Assembly (NCBI GenBank): GCA_945827525.1
Contig: CALZPA010000002.1
Coordinates: forward strand, 1-41,414
Origin: an uncultured Lentisphaeria bacterium
Lineage (GTDB): Bacteria > Verrucomicrobiota > Lentisphaeria > Oligosphaerales > Oligosphaeraceae
Direction of reading: 5' to 3'
Length of the DNA: 41,414 nt
Shown piece after piece: positions 28,709 through 36,018 of this stretch. The first letter of the stretch is position 1. Each line of letters begins with the position of its first letter. The notes below the pieces were generated by a model. That model was not told where the DNA came from and made no database searches. It worked only from the letters and a program-made list of their open reading frames with translations. The position numbers and the translations under genes are program-made.

Positions 28709-29968
28709 TCAAGGTCTGCGCCAGTTGTGGAGGAGGACTTGGACGTGGTCGAGGATGTCGTCCTCGGCGGGGACGTGTCGGTTGAGCATGAGGATGCGTC
28801 CGTCGCAGATGAGGGTGTGGACGCAGGCGGAGTCGCAGGCGTAGACGAGATTGGCCTTCCAGTCGTGTTCGGCGAGCATCTGTGGGGTTCGGGTGTTGAT
28901 GAGCATGATGTCGGCGAGTCTGCCGGGCTCAATGACGCCGGCGTCGATGCCGAAGGCGGCGGCGCCGTTGGCGGTGGCGCAGGTGAGGACGTCGGCGGCG
29001 CCGGCGGCGGTGGGGTCGTTGGCCTGGTGTCGGGCGTTGAAGACGGCGGTCTTCATGTCGTCGAACATGGAGAGCGAGTCGTTGGAGGCGCAGCCGTCGG
29101 TGCCGATGGTGATGCGGCAGCCGTGTGCGAGGGTGTCGCGGAAGCGGAAGGAGCCGGAGTTGAGCTTGAAGTTGGAGCAGGCGTTGTGTGAGAGCCAGAC
29201 GCCGCGCTGTGCGAGGGTGTCGATGTCCTGGTCGGTGAGGTGGATGGCGTGCGCGGCGATGGTCTGGTCGGTGAGGACGCCGAGGGAGTCGAGGTACTGG
29301 GTGGGCGTGAGGCCGTGGTGGAGGCGTCGGCAGTCGTCGACCTCCTGCTGGGTTTCGGCGAGGTGGAGGTGGATGCGGTAGCCCTCGGCGACGGAGCGCT
29401 CGGCGACCTCGCGGAAGGCGGGTTCGGAGACGGTGTAGACGGCGTGGGGGGCGAGGGTGAACTGGATGCGGTCGGAGAAGGAGTCTCGGGCGGCGAGGAG
29501 GTCTCGGGTGTCCTGCTCGTTGGCGGCCTTGACCTGCTCGTTGATGTCGAGGTACTGCATGCCGACGGCGGCTCTCATGCCCATCTCGTCGCAGGCTCTG
29601 GCGTTGACGACGGGTCGGAAGTACATGTCGTTGAGGAAGACGGTTCCGGACTTGATCATCTCGAGGCAGGCGAGCTTGGTTCCCCAGTGGATGAGTTCTG
29701 GGGTGAGGGTGGCCTCGGCGGGCCAGATGTGGTTGTTGAGCCAGTCGAAGAGCTGGAGCTTGTCGGCCATGCCACGGAGGAGGGTCATGGCGGCGTGGGT
29801 GTGGGTGTTGTAGAAGGGCGGGCAGGCGAGGAGTCCGGTGCCGTCGAGGGTCTGGTCGAAGGTCTGGTCGGCGGGAATGTCGCCGATGGCGTCGATGCGG
29901 TTGCCGCGGATGGCGATGCTGGTGATGCGGTCGTCGAGGCGGACATTCTGGATGAGCAGGCTGGACAT
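28709..29968 (-). CDS. mtaD: Amidohydrolase, MTA/SAH deaminase (MtaD-like)
   Basis: The 419-residue protein has the metal-binding HTH of the amidohydrolase superfamily (NTHTHAAM, His56/His58), followed by TLLRGMADKLQLFDWLNNHIWP, which is typical of 5-methylthioadenosine/S-adenosylhomocysteine deaminases. Further metal ligands lie in HLHLAET, in the HAIHLTD region and in GTDGCASND. The enzyme would convert SAH to S-inosylhomocysteine and MTA to methylthioinosine. Substrate range is inferred, since related guanine or cytosine deaminases share these motifs. It lies in a run with metK, a PfkB kinase and ahcY, which supports an SAH-related role. Confidence 0.83.
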   Translation of the reverse strand: MSSLLIQNVRLDDRITSIAIRGNRIDAIGDIPADQTFDQTLDGTGLLACPPFYNTHTHAAMTLLRGMADKLQLFDWLNNHIWPAEATLTPELIHWGTKLACLEMIKSGTVFLNDMYFRPVVNARACDEMGMRAAVGMQYLDINEQVKAANEQDTRDLLAARDSFSDRIQFTLAPHAVYTVSEPAFREVAERSVAEGYRIHLHLAETQQEVDDCRRLHHGLTPTQYLDSLGVLTDQTIAAHAIHLTDQDIDTLAQRGVWLSHNACSNFKLNSGSFRFRDTLAHGCRITIGTDGCASNDSLSMFDDMKTAVFNARHQANDPTAAGAADVLTCATANGAAAFGIDAGVIEPGRLADIMLINTRTPQMLAEHDWKANLVYACDSACVHTLICDGRILMLNRHVPAEDDILDHVQVLLHNWRRP

Positions 29969-30025: not shown

Positions 30026-31108
30026 TCAGTGGGTGGCTTCGTCGGCGAGCCAGGCGTCGAGCATGTCGGCGATGAGTCCATGCTGGCGGACGTCTCGCCA
30101 GATGTCCTGTTCGAGGGCTTCCGGGGCGCGGCTGAGTCCGTTGGGGAAGTCCTGGGGCCGTGCGGCGAGGGTGGCGGCGGCGAGGTTGCTCAAGGCCATG
30201 GTGGGGTCGATGTAGCGGAGGAGTGTCGGCTCGGGCAGGCAGAAGTTGAGCGGTCGCTTGGCGTTGAGGACACGCGCGTCCGGCAGGTCGGGTCCCCATT
30301 CGTCCTCGACGCCCATGTTGGCGACGAGCTGGGTGCCCTGCCGGAGGGCGTCGAGGACGCATGTCATGGAGGCCAGGGCGCCGGCTCTGCCGGTGGCGGA
30401 GACGACGCACCAGGCGTGGGCGACGGCGGCCAGGACGGCGGGCTCGTCATGGAGGTCGACGAGTCGGACGCCTGGTCGTGGGCGGATGCGGGCGGTGTCG
30501 TCGACGGCGGTGACGTGGGAGCCGAGCCGCGCGGCGTGGAAGGCGATGCCGGAGCCGACCTTGCCGCAGCCGAAGACGACGAGTCGCCGACCGGCGGGGG
30601 AGCCGAGTCCGAGGTGTGAGAGGGCGCGGACGAAGCCGTCGCCGGTGCCGAGTCCGGTCTCGATGGTCTTGGTTCGGCTGTCGTCAACGAGGATGACGGG
30701 GCGGTCGGCGTGCTGGAAGTGCCAGGCGCCGGAGCGGGTGAGTTCGACGAAGCCCAGGCGCGGACGGAGATGGGCGTGTGCGCCGGCGCAGTCGAGGATG
30801 AGGTCGAAGGCGTCAGGCTGGCTGCAGTTGTGGGTGTGGGGGATATGGCAGGCGTCGAGGATGGGGAGGATGGCGGGGTCGTGGGGGATGGCGTCGGAGG
30901 TGGCGACGGTGAGGGTGGCGCCGGCCCGGAGGAGGGCGAGGTGCTTGACGAGCGTGTTGCGGAAGAGGGGCGTGGCGTCGAGGATGGCGCGTCCGCGGAG
31001 GGGGCGAAGCGCCTCGGGATGCTCGATGAGTCGCTGGAGGGCGGGATGCTCGGCGGGGGTGTAGGATTGCGCCAGGAGCGTCTGCAGCAGGTCGGTGTCG
31101 GGTTTCAT
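30026..31108 (-). CDS. AhcY-like NAD-binding protein lacking the catalytic segment
   Basis: The 360-residue protein looks like a shortened S-adenosylhomocysteine hydrolase. It keeps the NAD-binding fold (VVFGCGKVGSGIAFHAA, 178-192) and the segment around Glu150 (KTIETGLGTGDG) that aligns with EETTTGV of true AhcY. The stretch that carries the catalytic Lys and Asp in AhcY ([11 protein letters not shown]) is absent: the segment runs straight from HLGLGSPAGRR to the NAD fold. NIGHFD of AhcY reads NMGVED here. So it is unlikely to hydrolyse SAH by the usual mechanism. It may act on a related nucleoside (for example S-inosylhomocysteine) or be regulatory. ATG 31108 is preferred to 31150, which would overlap the upstream gene. 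Confidence 0.7.
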   Translation of the reverse strand: MKPDTDLLQTLLAQSYTPAEHPALQRLIEHPEALRPLRGRAILDATPLFRNTLVKHLALLRAGATLTVATSDAIPHDPAILPILDACHIPHTHNCSQPDAFDLILDCAGAHAHLRPRLGFVELTRSGAWHFQHADRPVILVDDSRTKTIETGLGTGDGFVRALSHLGLGSPAGRRLVVFGCGKVGSGIAFHAARLGSHVTAVDDTARIRPRPGVRLVDLHDEPAVLAAVAHAWCVVSATGRAGALASMTCVLDALRQGTQLVANMGVEDEWGPDLPDARVLNAKRPLNFCLPEPTLLRYIDPTMALSNLAAATLAARPQDFPNGLSRAPEALEQDIWRDVRQHGLIADMLDAWLADEATH

Positions 31109-31121
31109 GGTGTCGTCGTCA

Positions 31122-32306
31122 TCAGGCGGGGAAGAGCTGTCGGCGGACAAGGGCGAGCGCGGCGGCGTCGAAGCGCGCTTCGACGAGCTGTCGCGCCTGC
31201 TGTCGTCGCTGTTGGCGCTGTTCGGGGTGTGCGGCGGCGTCGGCGATGGCGTCGGCGAGGGTTTCTGGGGTGAGGGTGTGGAGTGGCCAGCCGGTGGTGG
31301 GCGTGACGGCCTCGGCGATGGAGCCGACCTGTGAGGCGATGACGGGCAGTCCGGCGGCCATGGCTTCGAGGATGACGTTGGGGATGCCGTCGCGGTCGCC
31401 GTCTGGGGTGACGACGCTGGGGGCGCAGAGGCAGGTCATGTCGGGCATGAGGGCGCGGATGGCGGCGGCGTCGAGGACGCCGCGCCAGGAGAGCCGGTCG
31501 GACAGTCCCAGCTCGTCGGCCAGGCGCTTGAGGGGGGCTTCGAGGGGGCCGTCGCCGACGAGTGTCAGGCGTGGCGAGAGTCCGCGCCGGACGAGGAGGT
31601 CGAGGGCGCGCAGGAGGATGTCGAGGCCCTTCTTGGGGACGAGTCGTCCGACGAAGAGGAGATTGGGTGCGGTGGGGTCGTCGTCGGCTCCGGGGAGGGT
31701 TTCGGCGTAGCGCCAGTGGTCGAGGTTGACGCCATGGTAGAGGAGGTGGAGTCGTCCCTGGAGTTCGGGCATTCGGGCGAGGCAGGCGTCGAAGGCGGCC
31801 TGGTTGCAGGCGGTGACGAAGCGCGCGCCGGCGAAGATGGCGCGCGGGTCGTACTTGGCGGCGTGGACGTCGAAGGCGTGGATGCCGACGGAGAAGGAGA
31901 GTCCGTGGCGTCGTGCGACGTGTGCGGCGAGGAGCGCGGCGAGGTCGGCGAATTCGGCGTGGAGGTGTCCGAAGCCGTGGGCGAGCACGTGCTGTTCGAG
32001 AGCCTGGAGGAGGGACCGGTGGGTGTGGAGGGAGAGTGCGGTGCGGAGGGTGGCGGGGAGGAGCCGCTTGAGCGCGTCGGCGAGGCGTCCGCGCCTTGCG
32101 TGGGAGCCGGTGGCGGCGCCGGATGCCGTGTCGGGCGAGAGGATGGTGGCCTGTGGCCAGCCCGGCTGGAGGTCGCAGTCGCCGGGATAGAGTGCGGCGG
32201 CCTTGACGTCCAGTCCGGTGCGCTGGAGAAAGGAGAGGTCCTGGCGCAGGAATGTCTCGCTCCAGCGGGGATAGGCCGTGAAGAGGAAGAGGCATTGGGT
32301 GGCCAT
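31122..32306 (-). CDS. Glycosyltransferase, GT4 family
   Basis: The 394-residue protein has a GT-B fold of the GT4 type: an N-terminal TAYPRWSETFLRQDL, GVNLDHWRYAE in the middle, LLFVGRLVPKKGLDILLRA, and the EX7E-like donor segment GIPNVILEAMAAGLPVIAS with SIAEAV. It transfers a sugar from an NDP-sugar to a lipid or polysaccharide acceptor, probably at the cytoplasmic face of the membrane. It is placed between ahcY and the AhcY-like gene with gaps of 39 and 13 bp, so it is likely co-transcribed with SAM-cycle genes although its activity has no evident link. Confidence 0.9.
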   Translation of the reverse strand: MATQCLFLFTAYPRWSETFLRQDLSFLQRTGLDVKAAALYPGDCDLQPGWPQATILSPDTASGAATGSHARRGRLADALKRLLPATLRTALSLHTHRSLLQALEQHVLAHGFGHLHAEFADLAALLAAHVARRHGLSFSVGIHAFDVHAAKYDPRAIFAGARFVTACNQAAFDACLARMPELQGRLHLLYHGVNLDHWRYAETLPGADDDPTAPNLLFVGRLVPKKGLDILLRALDLLVRRGLSPRLTLVGDGPLEAPLKRLADELGLSDRLSWRGVLDAAAIRALMPDMTCLCAPSVVTPDGDRDGIPNVILEAMAAGLPVIASQVGSIAEAVTPTTGWPLHTLTPETLADAIADAAAHPEQRQQRRQQARQLVEARFDAAALALVRRQLFPA

Positions 32307-32345: not shown

Positions 32346-33761
32346 TCAGTAGCGGTAGAGGTCGGCCTTGTAGGGGCCTTCGACGGGGACGCCGAGGTAG
32401 TCGGCCTGCTTCTGGGTGAGGGTGCTGAGGTGGACGCCGAGCTGTTCGAGGTGGAGCCGTGCGACTTCCTCGTCGAGCTTCTTGTCGAGGAGGTAGACGC
32501 CGGTGGCGAGTGTTTCGGAGGCGAGCTTGATCTGGGCGAGGACCTGGTTGGTGAAGGAGCAGGACATGACGAAGGCGGGGTGTCCGGTGGCGCAGCCGAG
32601 GTTGACGAGTCGTCCGTCGGCGAGGAGGATGATGGAGTGTCCGTCGGGGAAGGTGTACTTGTCGACCTGTGGCTTGATGGGCGTCTTGACGATGCCGGGG
32701 ACGGCCTTGAGCTGGGCGACCTGGATTTCGTCGTCGAAGTGACCGATGTTGCAGACGATGGCGTGGTCCTTCATGCGGGCCATGTCGTCGGCGGAGATGA
32801 TGTCGCAGTTGCCGGTGCAGGTGACGTAGATGTCGCCGTAGGGGAGAGCCTCCTGGAGGGTGACGACCTCGAGTCCGGCCATGGCGGCCTGGAGGGCGCA
32901 GATGGGGTCGACCTCGGTGACGAGGACGCGGGCGCCGAAGCCGCGCAGGGACTGGACGCAGCCCTTGCCGACGTCGCCGTAGCCGCAGACGACGCAGACC
33001 TTGCCGGCGACCATGACGTCGGTGGCGCGCTTGATGCCGTCGACGAGCGACTCGCGGCAGCCGTAGAGGTTGTCGAATTTGGATTTGGTGACGGAGTCGT
33101 TGACGTTGATGGCGGGGACGAGGAGCTTGCCGGCGGCGTGGCGCTGGTAGAGTCTCATGACGCCGGTGGTGGTCTCCTCGGAGACGCCCTTCCAGTCGGC
33201 GACGGTGCGGGTCCACTTCTGCGGGTCCTCGGCGAGGGTTCGGCGGATGAGGGCGACGAGTTCGCGCTCGTCGTCGGAGGCGTCTGGCGGGCAGGTGAGG
33301 GAGTCGGGATGGTGTTCGGCCTCAAAGCCCTTGTGGATGAGGAGGGTGATGTCGCCGCCGTCATCGACGACGAGGGTGGGTCCCTTGCCTCCGGGGAAGG
33401 AGAGGGCCTGTCGGGTGCACTCCCAGTAGTCGGCGGCTGTCTCGCCCTTCCAGGCGAAGACGGGGACGCCACGGGCGGCGACGGCGGCGGCGGCGGAGTC
33501 GCGGGTGGAGAAGATGTTGCAGGAGCACCAGCGGACGTCGGCGCCGAGCTCGACGAGCGTCTCGATGAGGATGGCGGTCTCGGTGGTCATGTGGAGGCTG
33601 CCGGAGATGCGCTGTCCCCGAAGAGGCTTGAGCGGGCCGTACTTGCGGCGGCAGGCCATCAGCCCCGGCATCTCCTTCTCCTCCATCTCGATTTCACGGC
33701 GTCCCAGGTCGGCCAGGGAGGGGTCGGCCAGCCAACTGTGCTCGGTCTTGACAATGCTCAT
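32346..33761 (-). CDS. ahcY: S-adenosylhomocysteine hydrolase
   Basis: The 471-residue enzyme hydrolyses SAH to homocysteine and adenosine using tightly bound NAD. All key segments are intact: [10 protein letters not shown] near 54-63, VDDGGDIT (Asp137), EETTTGV near 195-201, [11 protein letters not shown] (Lys226 and Asp230 being catalytic), and the NAD loop GYGDVGKG at 260-267. NIGHFDDEI follows, and the C terminus [12 protein letters not shown]-type ends in a Tyr-rich PYKADLYRY tail. Length is normal for the bacterial form. It lies 31 bp after the kinase gene in the metK operon. Confidence 0.97.
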
Positions 33762-33792: not shown

Positions 33793-34809
33793 TTATGGTT
33801 GGTGGGTGGGCGTTGGGTTCAGCTCGTCGCGGAGGCGTTGCCAGACGGGGGCGGGGAGGGCGGTTCCGACGACCTGGACGACCTCGGCGGCGACGCGGGC
33901 GCCGAAGCGTCCGGCCTCCGCGAGGGAGTGTCCGGCGAGGAGGGAGGCGAGGAAGCCGGCCGCCCAGAAGTCGCCGGCGCCTGTCGTGTCGCGTGGCGTC
34001 TCGACGGCGAACGCCGGGATGTGCAGGTGCGTCGCGTCCCCCCGGCGCTGCAGCAGGCAGCCGTGGCGTCCCAGCTTGACGGCGGCGAGGTCGCAGCATT
34101 CCAGGAAGGCGCGCAGGGCGTCCGTGGGGCGGTCGCTGCCGGCGAAGGCGGCGGCCTCCAGCTCGTTGGCGAAGACGAGGGAGACATGGTGGGTGAGGAC
34201 CTCGCGCAGCTCGTCGTGGTAGGCGGTGACGACCTCGGGGGCGTTGCAGTCGAGGCAGACGGTGAGTCCGGCGTCGTGGGCCTTGCGGGCGAGGTCGGCG
34301 GCGATGCCCTGCTGCCGGAAGGCATAGCCTTCGAGGAGGAAGTGGGAGAAGCCCTGGAAGTCGGCGGGCCGGAAGGTGTCGGTGTCGACGTCGAGGTTGG
34401 CGCCGAGGTTGGTGCGCATGGTACGTTCGGCGTCCGGTGTGATGAGGGAGAGGACGGTGCCGGTGGGGTGTCCGGGCGCGGCCAGACGGCAGTGCGCGTC
34501 GCTGACGCCGTCGTGGCGGAGGCTCTGGCGGTAGAGGTGACCGCGCGGGTCGTCTCCGGTGACGGCGAGCATGGCGGCGCGTCCGCCGAGGCGGGCGAAG
34601 GCGGCGAGGGTGTTGCGGGCGGCGCCGCCGGGGAGGGTGACGGGCGGGTTGGGGAGTCGGCGGAGGAGGGCGTCCATGTCGTCGGGGGAGACGAGCTGTG
34701 TGCCGCCCTTGTCGCCGGGGACGGAGCGCAGGAAGCCCTCGTCGACGTCGGCGAGGACATCGACGAGGGCGGAGCCGAAGCCGAGGAGACTCGGTGTGTG
34801 GGGAGGCAT
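33793..34809 (-). CDS. PfkB-family carbohydrate kinase, probable adenosine kinase
   Basis: The 338-residue kinase has the PfkB N-terminal signature [17 protein letters not shown] and the C-terminal [11 protein letters not shown], containing the catalytic Asp. Ribokinase, fructokinase and adenosine kinase all have this fold. Placement 12 bp after metK and 31 bp before ahcY argues for adenosine kinase, which would drain the adenosine released from SAH and pull the AhcY reaction forward. The specificity is inference from context. Confidence 0.85.
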
Positions 34810-34821
34810 CGTGTGTGTGGC

Positions 34822-36018
34822 CTAGAGCTGGAACGCCTGGCGGAGCGCGTCGGCCTTGTCGGTGCGTTCCCAGGGGAAGTCGGGATTGCCGAAGTGTCCC
34901 TGCTGTGCGGTCTGGCGGTAGGACCAGCCCTGCGGTCGCTTGAGCTGCAGGTGCTCGATGATTTGGGCGGGACGGAAGTCGAAGATGTCGCCGTTGGCGA
35001 CGGCGGCGGCGATGCGCTCGTCCTCTACCTTGCCGGTGCCGAAGGTGTTGACGTTGATGGAGAGGGGCTCGGGGCGTCCGATGGCGTAGGCGACCTGGAG
35101 TTCGCAGCAGTCGGCGAGTCCGGCGGCGACGATGTTCTTGACGGCGTAGCGGGCCATGTAGGCGGCGGAGCGGTCGACCTTGGAGGGGTCTTTGCCGGAG
35201 AAGGCGCCGCCGCCGTGTCGTCCCATGCCGCCGTAGGTGTCGACGATGATCTTGCGTCCGGTGACGCCGGTGTCTCCGGCGGGGCCGCCGATGACGAACT
35301 GGCCGGTGGGGTTGATGAAGTAGCGGGTCGTGGTGGTCAGGAGGTGCTCGGGGATGATTTCGGCGACGACCTGTCTGGTGAGGGCCTCGAGCTGGGCGCG
35401 GTCGTAGTCCGTGGCGTGCTGGTGGGAGAGGACGACGGTCTGGAGGGCGACGGGCTTGCCGTTCTCGTAGCTGAAGGTGAGCTGGACTTTGGCGTCGGGC
35501 TTGAGGAAGCGCCGTTCGGGCGGGAGCTTCTGGAGCTCGTGGCGGATTTCGGTGAAGCGCTGGAGGATGAGCCGCGAGTAGTGGATGGGCGCGGGCATGA
35601 AGGCGTCGGTCTCGCTGCAGGCGAAGCCGAACATCATGCCCTGGTCGCCGGCGCCCTGCTCGTGGGTCTCGGAGGTGCTGGCGGTGACGCCCAGCGAGAT
35701 GTCCGGCGACTGGCTGTGGAGGGCGACGAGGATCTGCGCGGACTCGGCGGAGAAGCCGAGGCTGGGGTCGTCGTAGCCGATGTCGGCGACGACCTGCTTG
35801 GCGATGCCTGCGAAGTCGACCTTGGCGCGGGTGGTTATTTCGCCGGCGAGGACGATGAGGTTGGTGGTGGTGAGGACTTCGCAGGCGACCCGGGACTCGG
35901 GGTCCTGCTGGAGGCAGGCGTCGAGGATGGCGTCCGCGATTTGGTCGGAGACCTTGTCGGGATGGCCCTCGGAGACGCACTCGGAGGTGAAGACATGGGG
36001 GGCTTTGAGCGTTGACAT
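34822..36018 (-). CDS. metK: S-adenosylmethionine synthetase
   Basis: The 398-residue enzyme makes SAM from methionine and ATP. Markers are SEGHPDKVSDQIADA with the catalytic His, the signature GAGDQGMMFGFA near residue 120, and the P-loop-like GGGAFSGKDPSKVDRS near 265. I chose ATG 36018, which gives the standard N terminus, has AAAGGAAG upstream, and leaves a long leader; the frame is open to 36177 but that part is not conserved in type. It is the first gene of the minus-strand run metK - kinase - ahcY - GT4 - AhcY-like - MtaD-like. Confidence 0.97.
   Translation of the reverse strand: MSTLKAPHVFTSECVSEGHPDKVSDQIADAILDACLQQDPESRVACEVLTTTNLIVLAGEITTRAKVDFAGIAKQVVADIGYDDPSLGFSAESAQILVALHSQSPDISLGVTASTSETHEQGAGDQGMMFGFACSETDAFMPAPIHYSRLILQRFTEIRHELQKLPPERRFLKPDAKVQLTFSYENGKPVALQTVVLSHQHATDYDRAQLEALTRQVVAEIIPEHLLTTTTRYFINPTGQFVIGGPAGDTGVTGRKIIVDTYGGMGRHGGGAFSGKDPSKVDRSAAYMARYAVKNIVAAGLADCCELQVAYAIGRPEPLSINVNTFGTGKVEDERIAAAVANGDIFDFRPAQIIEHLQLKRPQGWSYRQTAQQGHFGNPDFPWERTDKADALRQAFQL

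Follow-up and report, generated by a model that had tools for sequence, protein, structure and literature searches.

Non-hydrolase paralogues of SAH hydrolase (AhcY) exist, namely those of the AHCYL/IRBIT type, and NAD-dependent redox-neutral glycosidases are known in the families GH4 and GH109, which proceed by C3 oxidation, C1 elimination, hydration and reduction. In SAH hydrolase itself, Lys186 takes the proton of the 3'-OH and Asp131 that of C4', while His55 supplies a proton to the departing homocysteine (PMC13406329, Lupinus numbering) and also bonds the 5'-OH (PMC7765604). The roles of this lysine and of Asn346, a nicotinamide contact, have been described (PMC13406329, PMC7765604), as have those of the HxTxQ(E)xT motif (PMC10978960, PMC7765604). 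The enzyme additionally splits the N-glycosidic bond of 2'-deoxyadenosine; this reaction runs via a 3'-keto intermediate and stalls at the NADH stage (PMC6063907). 5'-Deoxyadenosine is toxic and, like methylthioadenosine, is made by radical-SAM and polyamine-making cells (PMC8102628, PMC6079011). Here we describe an AhcY-like protein, AhcL, encoded in the window, by which we mean the whole 41,414-nucleotide stretch of DNA analysed, from an uncultured Lentisphaeria bacterium.

Locus and operon

We found that the ahcL open reading frame is intact over its 360 codons; a start at the in-frame TTG at 31150 instead would make it run into the upstream gene. As the earlier note on this DNA had stated, the gene lies directly upstream of that of an MtaD-like deaminase; we measured the gap as 57 bp (Table 1). 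The deaminase carries the metal-ligand motifs HTH, HLHLAE, AAHAIH and GTDG and matches PF01979 (2.8e-62) and the MTA/SAH deaminase 4f0r (2.7e-65). Both genes belong to a tight co-directional run, metK-adoK-ahcY-GT4-ahcL-mtaD, which, the glycosyltransferase aside, is an operon of the SAM cycle and its by-products. The GT4 gene was not seen beside ahcL in the loci of relatives, and no pathway link was visible there. Three other loci have an HD-domain gene immediately upstream of ahcL (L012:7418-7996, L014:2795-3382 and L017:7421-8008, with the domain checked in L012 only). Neither the GT4 nor the HD-domain gene is a conserved neighbour, and both were rejected as conserved partners of ahcL.

Table 1. 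Features of the ahcL locus in the window; residue numbers are those of AhcL
Feature	Coordinates	Strand	Description
metK	34822..36018	-	SAM synthetase; opens the co-directional run
PfkB-family kinase	33793..34809	-	Probably an adenosine kinase; closest in the PDB to 3ubo (adenosine kinase), 3e-37
ahcY	32346..33761	-	Canonical SAH hydrolase, 471 aa
GT4 glycosyltransferase	31122..32306	-	Between ahcY and ahcL
ahcL	30026..31108	-	SAH-hydrolase-superfamily protein, 360 aa; start ATG 31108
PLFRNT, residues 47-52	30953..30970	-	Occupies the position of AhcY HxTxQ(E)xT
Lys/Glu segment PVILVDDSRTKTIETGLGTG, residues 137-156	30641..30700	-	Lys147 = human K186, Glu150 = D190
NAD-binding loop GCGKVGSG, residues 180-187	30548..30571	-	70/70 in the family
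NMGVED, residues 264-269	30302..30319	-	Corresponds to AhcY NIGHFD; His-Phe molecular gate absent
mtaD	28709..29968	-	Amidohydrolase-superfamily nucleoside deaminase, MTA/SAH/5'-deoxyadenosine type

Homology and active site of AhcL

In a single-sequence search AhcL shows weak similarity to AhcY. A family profile built from 20 relatives and searched against the PDB sequences found the Pyrococcus SAH hydrolase (E = 6.6e-19), and an HMM-HMM comparison of AhcL with AhcY gave a probability of 99.5% (E = 5e-22). The earlier note had called for a structure prediction and for a profile search of the AdoHcyase families. The AlphaFold model reached a pLDDT of 95.6, and its best PDB structure matches were all SAH hydrolases, with TM scores mostly of 0.70-0.75; the profile search left AhcL below the curated threshold of TIGR00936 (26 bits, cut-off 497.6) and gave no match to PF05221, the AhcY domain. 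AhcL is homologous to AhcY across its whole length, beyond chance, and by the tested defining features it lies outside AhcY proper, with the same fold. It represents a separate conserved family and not a degenerate copy.

Next, we compared residue conservation between 70 distinct AhcL sequences and 19 AhcY sequences of the same phylum, in which the AhcY catalytic residues are intact; the AhcL pocket was read from alignments alone. The catalytic His55, present in 19/19 AhcY sequences, is Pro47 in 70/70 AhcL sequences, the base-binding Gln/Glu59 is Asn51 in 70/70, and Asp131 (19/19 in AhcY) is Cys107 in 68/70. Likewise invariant in all 70 are D106, E122, L123 (at Glu156), T124, D142 (Asn181), K147 (Lys186), E150 (Asp190), T151 (Asn191), T155 (Cys195), E270, N288 (Asn346) and P294 with T295 (Gly352-His353), together with the NAD loop. 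The preservation of this loop had been recognised in the earlier note, as had the change of NIGHFD to NMGVED; across the family, the positions of the His-Phe gate hold Val/Ile/Ala/Leu267 and mostly Glu268. Beyond what was noted before, AhcL has also lost the C-terminal Lys/Tyr tail of AhcY and the residues His55, Asp131, Glu156 and His353.

Three alignments agree on the register of the Lys/Glu segment against the AhcY Lys186 segment: AhcL is one residue shorter there, and past this deletion Glu150 falls at Asp190. The earlier note had taken the catalytic Lys/Asp segment to be missing, adding that a Lys and Asp placed there by a shifted loop would speak against this. That view was wrong: DDSRTK-TIET is a diverged form of the segment, with K147 in register with K186 and with Glu150 at the Asp190 position. 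For the Lys, this is the outcome that the earlier note had itself named as contrary to its view. Judged by its residues, AhcL has retained the 3'-oxidation machinery and lost the C4'/C5' machinery, and as this pattern is fixed across the family it points to a different reaction and not to decay. A degenerate pseudo-enzyme was rejected, given the invariant active-site residues over the 70 relatives. The proposal of the earlier note that AhcL is an inert regulator of the SAM cycle, binding NAD or SAH, also seems very improbable to us. It would fit the absence of several AhcY catalytic residues and has a precedent in the AHCYL/IRBIT-type paralogues, but Lys186, the acidic residue at 190 and a distinct polar set unlike that of AhcY are invariant, and AhcL is present without AhcY in families f33 and f45 and exchanges one for one with an enzyme (see below).

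Distribution and link to MtaD

We detected AhcL in 77 of the 388 sampled Verrucomicrobiota genomes, which are mostly MAGs and include Akkermansia; two of the 77 are weak matches. Outside the phylum it was seen in one Bacteroidales MAG only, convergent with MtaD (L018:7977-10308), where transfer and mis-binning are both possible. No relatives of AhcL were found in the viral contigs and plasmids searched, on which ground a mobile or phage gene was rejected. The family is without a Pfam or NCBIfam model, its members are named, if at all, adenosylhomocysteinase or dehydrogenase, and no description of it was found in the open-access literature. AhcL is thus a real and conserved family of Verrucomicrobiota that is apparently undescribed.

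The gene lies immediately upstream of mtaD, sometimes overlapping it, in most Lentisphaeria-like genomes and in f33 and f45. Across families f14 and f15, MtaD is present in 43/43 genomes with AhcL versus 7/36 without it. Akkermansia has a distant MtaD, whose gene is for the most part not linked to ahcL. One genome without MtaD (G370) has ahcL divergent from, and adjoining, an adenosine-deaminase-family gene, that is, one of a different deaminase family. A longer AhcL of 508 aa, with approximately 150 extra N-terminal residues (L060:6984-8510), is also encoded divergently from an adenosine-deaminase-family gene. A position of AhcL directly after MtaD in the pathway is well supported; the suggestion of the earlier note that it handles a deaminated nucleoside gains support from the adjacency to and co-occurrence with MtaD, and from the alternation with an inosine-type PNP described below.

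Nearly all AhcL genomes outside f33 and f45 carry AhcY too, whereas f33 and f45 are without it. In genus g90 of f33 (G072, G081, G096, G099, G116, G131, G203, G298 and G342) AhcL-MtaD occurs with apparently no AhcY, and most of these genomes have MtnN and PNP as well. A role of AhcL as the AhcY replacement in f33 and f45 was rejected, since f33 has MtnN and AhcL stands beside AhcY elsewhere.

Exchange with PNP and co-loss with HPRT

Our survey of nucleoside-cleaving proteins covered PNP_UDP_1 and PF01156. In f14 and f15, PNP_UDP_1 proteins are present in 1/43 genomes with AhcL versus 34/36 without it (Fisher 8e-19, uncorrected for phylogeny). Among genomes with MtaD but no AhcL, those tested (G003, G190, G221 and G304) have an inosine/guanosine PNP according to NCBIfam, and among genomes with neither MtaD nor AhcL, G074 has an MTA phosphorylase and G089 an MtnN-like nucleosidase. 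The PF01156 nucleoside hydrolase shows no correlation with AhcL and was rejected as an alternative partner.

The exchange can be followed within genera. At the same site in genus g39, the AhcL species have murF-murE-ahcL-mtaD, whereas G221, G291 and G403 have murF-murE-mtaD, with PF01048 proteins elsewhere in the genome. Three further g39 genomes (G077, G121 and G409) are without AhcY, AhcL and MtaD and carry a PNP_UDP_1 protein that is MtnN-like in appearance. Genus g8, which belongs to the family of the window genome, displays the same swap with strong PF01048 matches (G024, G026 and G028 versus G007 and G017). The window genome has a divergent protein as its sole PNP homologue (97.6 bits, cut-off 218; L089:3258-4334, G000:C84), whose PNP motifs look altered; judging from its sequence, it may be what is left of the displaced enzyme. 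The MtaD tree has, on its strong branches, at least four changes of state for AhcL, and every supported pair differing in PNP goes opposite to AhcL, with 0-2 informative pairs; phylogeny-aware sign tests of AhcL versus PNP gave no significance, as the independent supported pairs are too few. Exceptions are f33, G182 and G059, which have both AhcL and PNP-superfamily proteins.

In Akkermansia, PNP_UDP_1 was found in 0/23 genomes and IU_nuc_hydro (PF01156) in none of the 10 genomes tested. HPRT is present in 7/7 AhcL-positive versus 1/6 AhcL-negative genomes tested, and the Akkermansia tree contains three independent AhcL losses; HPRT was lost as well in two of them, and no case runs in the opposite direction. 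In the third (G333), MtaD is nearly identical to that of an AhcL-positive genome, and the absence of AhcL may be an assembly gap. The genomes with loss of both AhcL and HPRT are G063, G123, G147, G156 and G320, on two independent branches. By the TIGR01203 model, HPRT is also absent from f33, which keeps AhcL-MtaD with MtnN and PNP. If the product of AhcL were hypoxanthine, co-loss with HPRT would be expected; if it were inosine, HPRT would be irrelevant.

This bears on an alternative that we regard as unlikely, in which AhcL keeps the AhcY-type C5' chemistry on a deaminated substrate, with Cys107 in place of Asp131, and yields inosine with methanethiol from methylthioinosine or inosine with homocysteine from S-inosylhomocysteine. 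The archaeal DadD and S-inosylhomocysteine hydrolase are a known pair of deaminase and AhcY homologue (PMC10978960), the residues for 3'-oxidation are kept, the Cys could act as a base, and the adenosine-type PfkB kinase of the operon could salvage the nucleoside product. However, an inosine product would not explain the replacement of PNP or the co-loss with HPRT, the proline at His55 and the missing His-Phe gate are features of the whole family, the HxExK of enzymes preferring S-inosylhomocysteine is PxFxN in AhcL, and AhcY is usually present alongside. For the last reason and the absent gate, S-inosylhomocysteine, which the earlier note had put forward, is the less likely substrate. MtaD may point the same way: the positions of TM0936 Arg136/Arg148, which we take to be the binders of the SAH carboxylate, are non-Arg in the window protein, but apparently also in 4f0r, an annotated MTA/SAH deaminase.

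Proposed reaction

Taking together the retained 3'-oxidation residues, the lost C4'/C5' residues, the linkage to MtaD, the alternation with PNP, the co-loss with HPRT and the precedent of 2'-deoxyadenosine cleavage by SAH hydrolase, we tentatively propose, with somewhat less than even confidence, that AhcL works with NAD to oxidise C3' of the nucleosides made by MtaD and to eliminate hypoxanthine from them, thereby replacing PNP; we infer the substrate, the bond broken and the regeneration of the cofactor. MtaD would deaminate 5'-deoxyadenosine and/or methylthioadenosine, and possibly adenosine, to the inosine form, so that the candidate substrates of AhcL would be 5'-deoxyinosine, methylthioinosine or inosine, the likeliest being those without a 5'-OH. 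K147 and E150, with bound NAD+, would oxidise C3' of the nucleoside, the 3'-keto sugar would lose hypoxanthine at C1', and the sugar would then be hydrated and reduced by the same NADH, which would restore the starting cofactor. The hypoxanthine would pass to HPRT, and AhcL would do the work of purine nucleoside phosphorylase with no need of phosphate. This proposal is weakened by f33, G182 and G059, which keep both AhcL and PNP_UDP_1, by the absence of HPRT from f33 by the TIGR01203 model, by the distant and largely unlinked MtaD of Akkermansia and by the small number of phylogenetically independent contrasts; additionally, no dedicated base for the C2'-H was identified in AhcL, which counts against it.

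Another possibility, to which we give fairly little weight, is that AhcL acts downstream of MtaD in an NAD-dependent manner with a different outcome, as a 3'-epimerase, as a lyase that leaves an unsaturated sugar, or as a 3'-dehydrogenase with a keto-nucleoside as its product. C3' oxidation alone is what the retained residues directly predict, and the conserved D142, C107, R125, E270 and T295 set AhcL apart from every characterised AhcY, but by itself such a reaction leaves the exchange with a base-releasing enzyme and the co-loss of HPRT unexplained.

Returning to hypoxanthine elimination, AhcL could, as a bolder and more doubtful suggestion, be a new activity, a phosphate-independent NAD-dependent purine nucleosidase evolved from the abortive cleavage by SAH hydrolase, which in Akkermansia and Lentisphaeria-type bacteria displaced PNP where by-products of radical-SAM and polyamine metabolism are cleared. 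Many of these bacteria are without the usual nucleosidases and phosphorylases, and AhcL-MtaD would be their missing route. If true, the route is present in gut bacteria including Akkermansia, and its chemistry is one used by no described nucleosidase found in the open-access literature.

Comparison with known systems

AhcL has in common with AhcY/AHCY (EC 3.3.1.1; TIGR00936, PF05221 and PF00670) the full-length fold, the NAD loop and the Lys186 and Asn346 positions, and in the window their genes share an operon. Their identity is about 20%, however: AhcL has replacements at H55, D131, E156, N191, C195, H301-F302 and H353 and in the C-terminal Lys/Tyr tail, and the long insert of bacterial AhcY is missing from it. 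The methanogen S-inosyl-L-homocysteine hydrolase (MJ1388 type, EC 3.13.1.9) with DadD likewise pairs an AhcY homologue with an MTA/SAH/5'-deoxyadenosine deaminase, and a hypoxanthine-containing substrate is likely common to both systems; the methanogen enzyme has the catalytic His and HxExK (PMC10978960) and acts at C5', whereas in AhcL the motif is PxFxN and the gate is missing. In the pathway, purine nucleoside phosphorylase I (TIGR01700) and methylthioinosine phosphorylase occupy the same inferred place, after a deaminase and releasing hypoxanthine, but have an unrelated fold and use phosphate rather than NAD. Finally, the mechanism proposed for AhcL would be alike to that of GH4 and GH109, which are different families acting on carbohydrate substrates.
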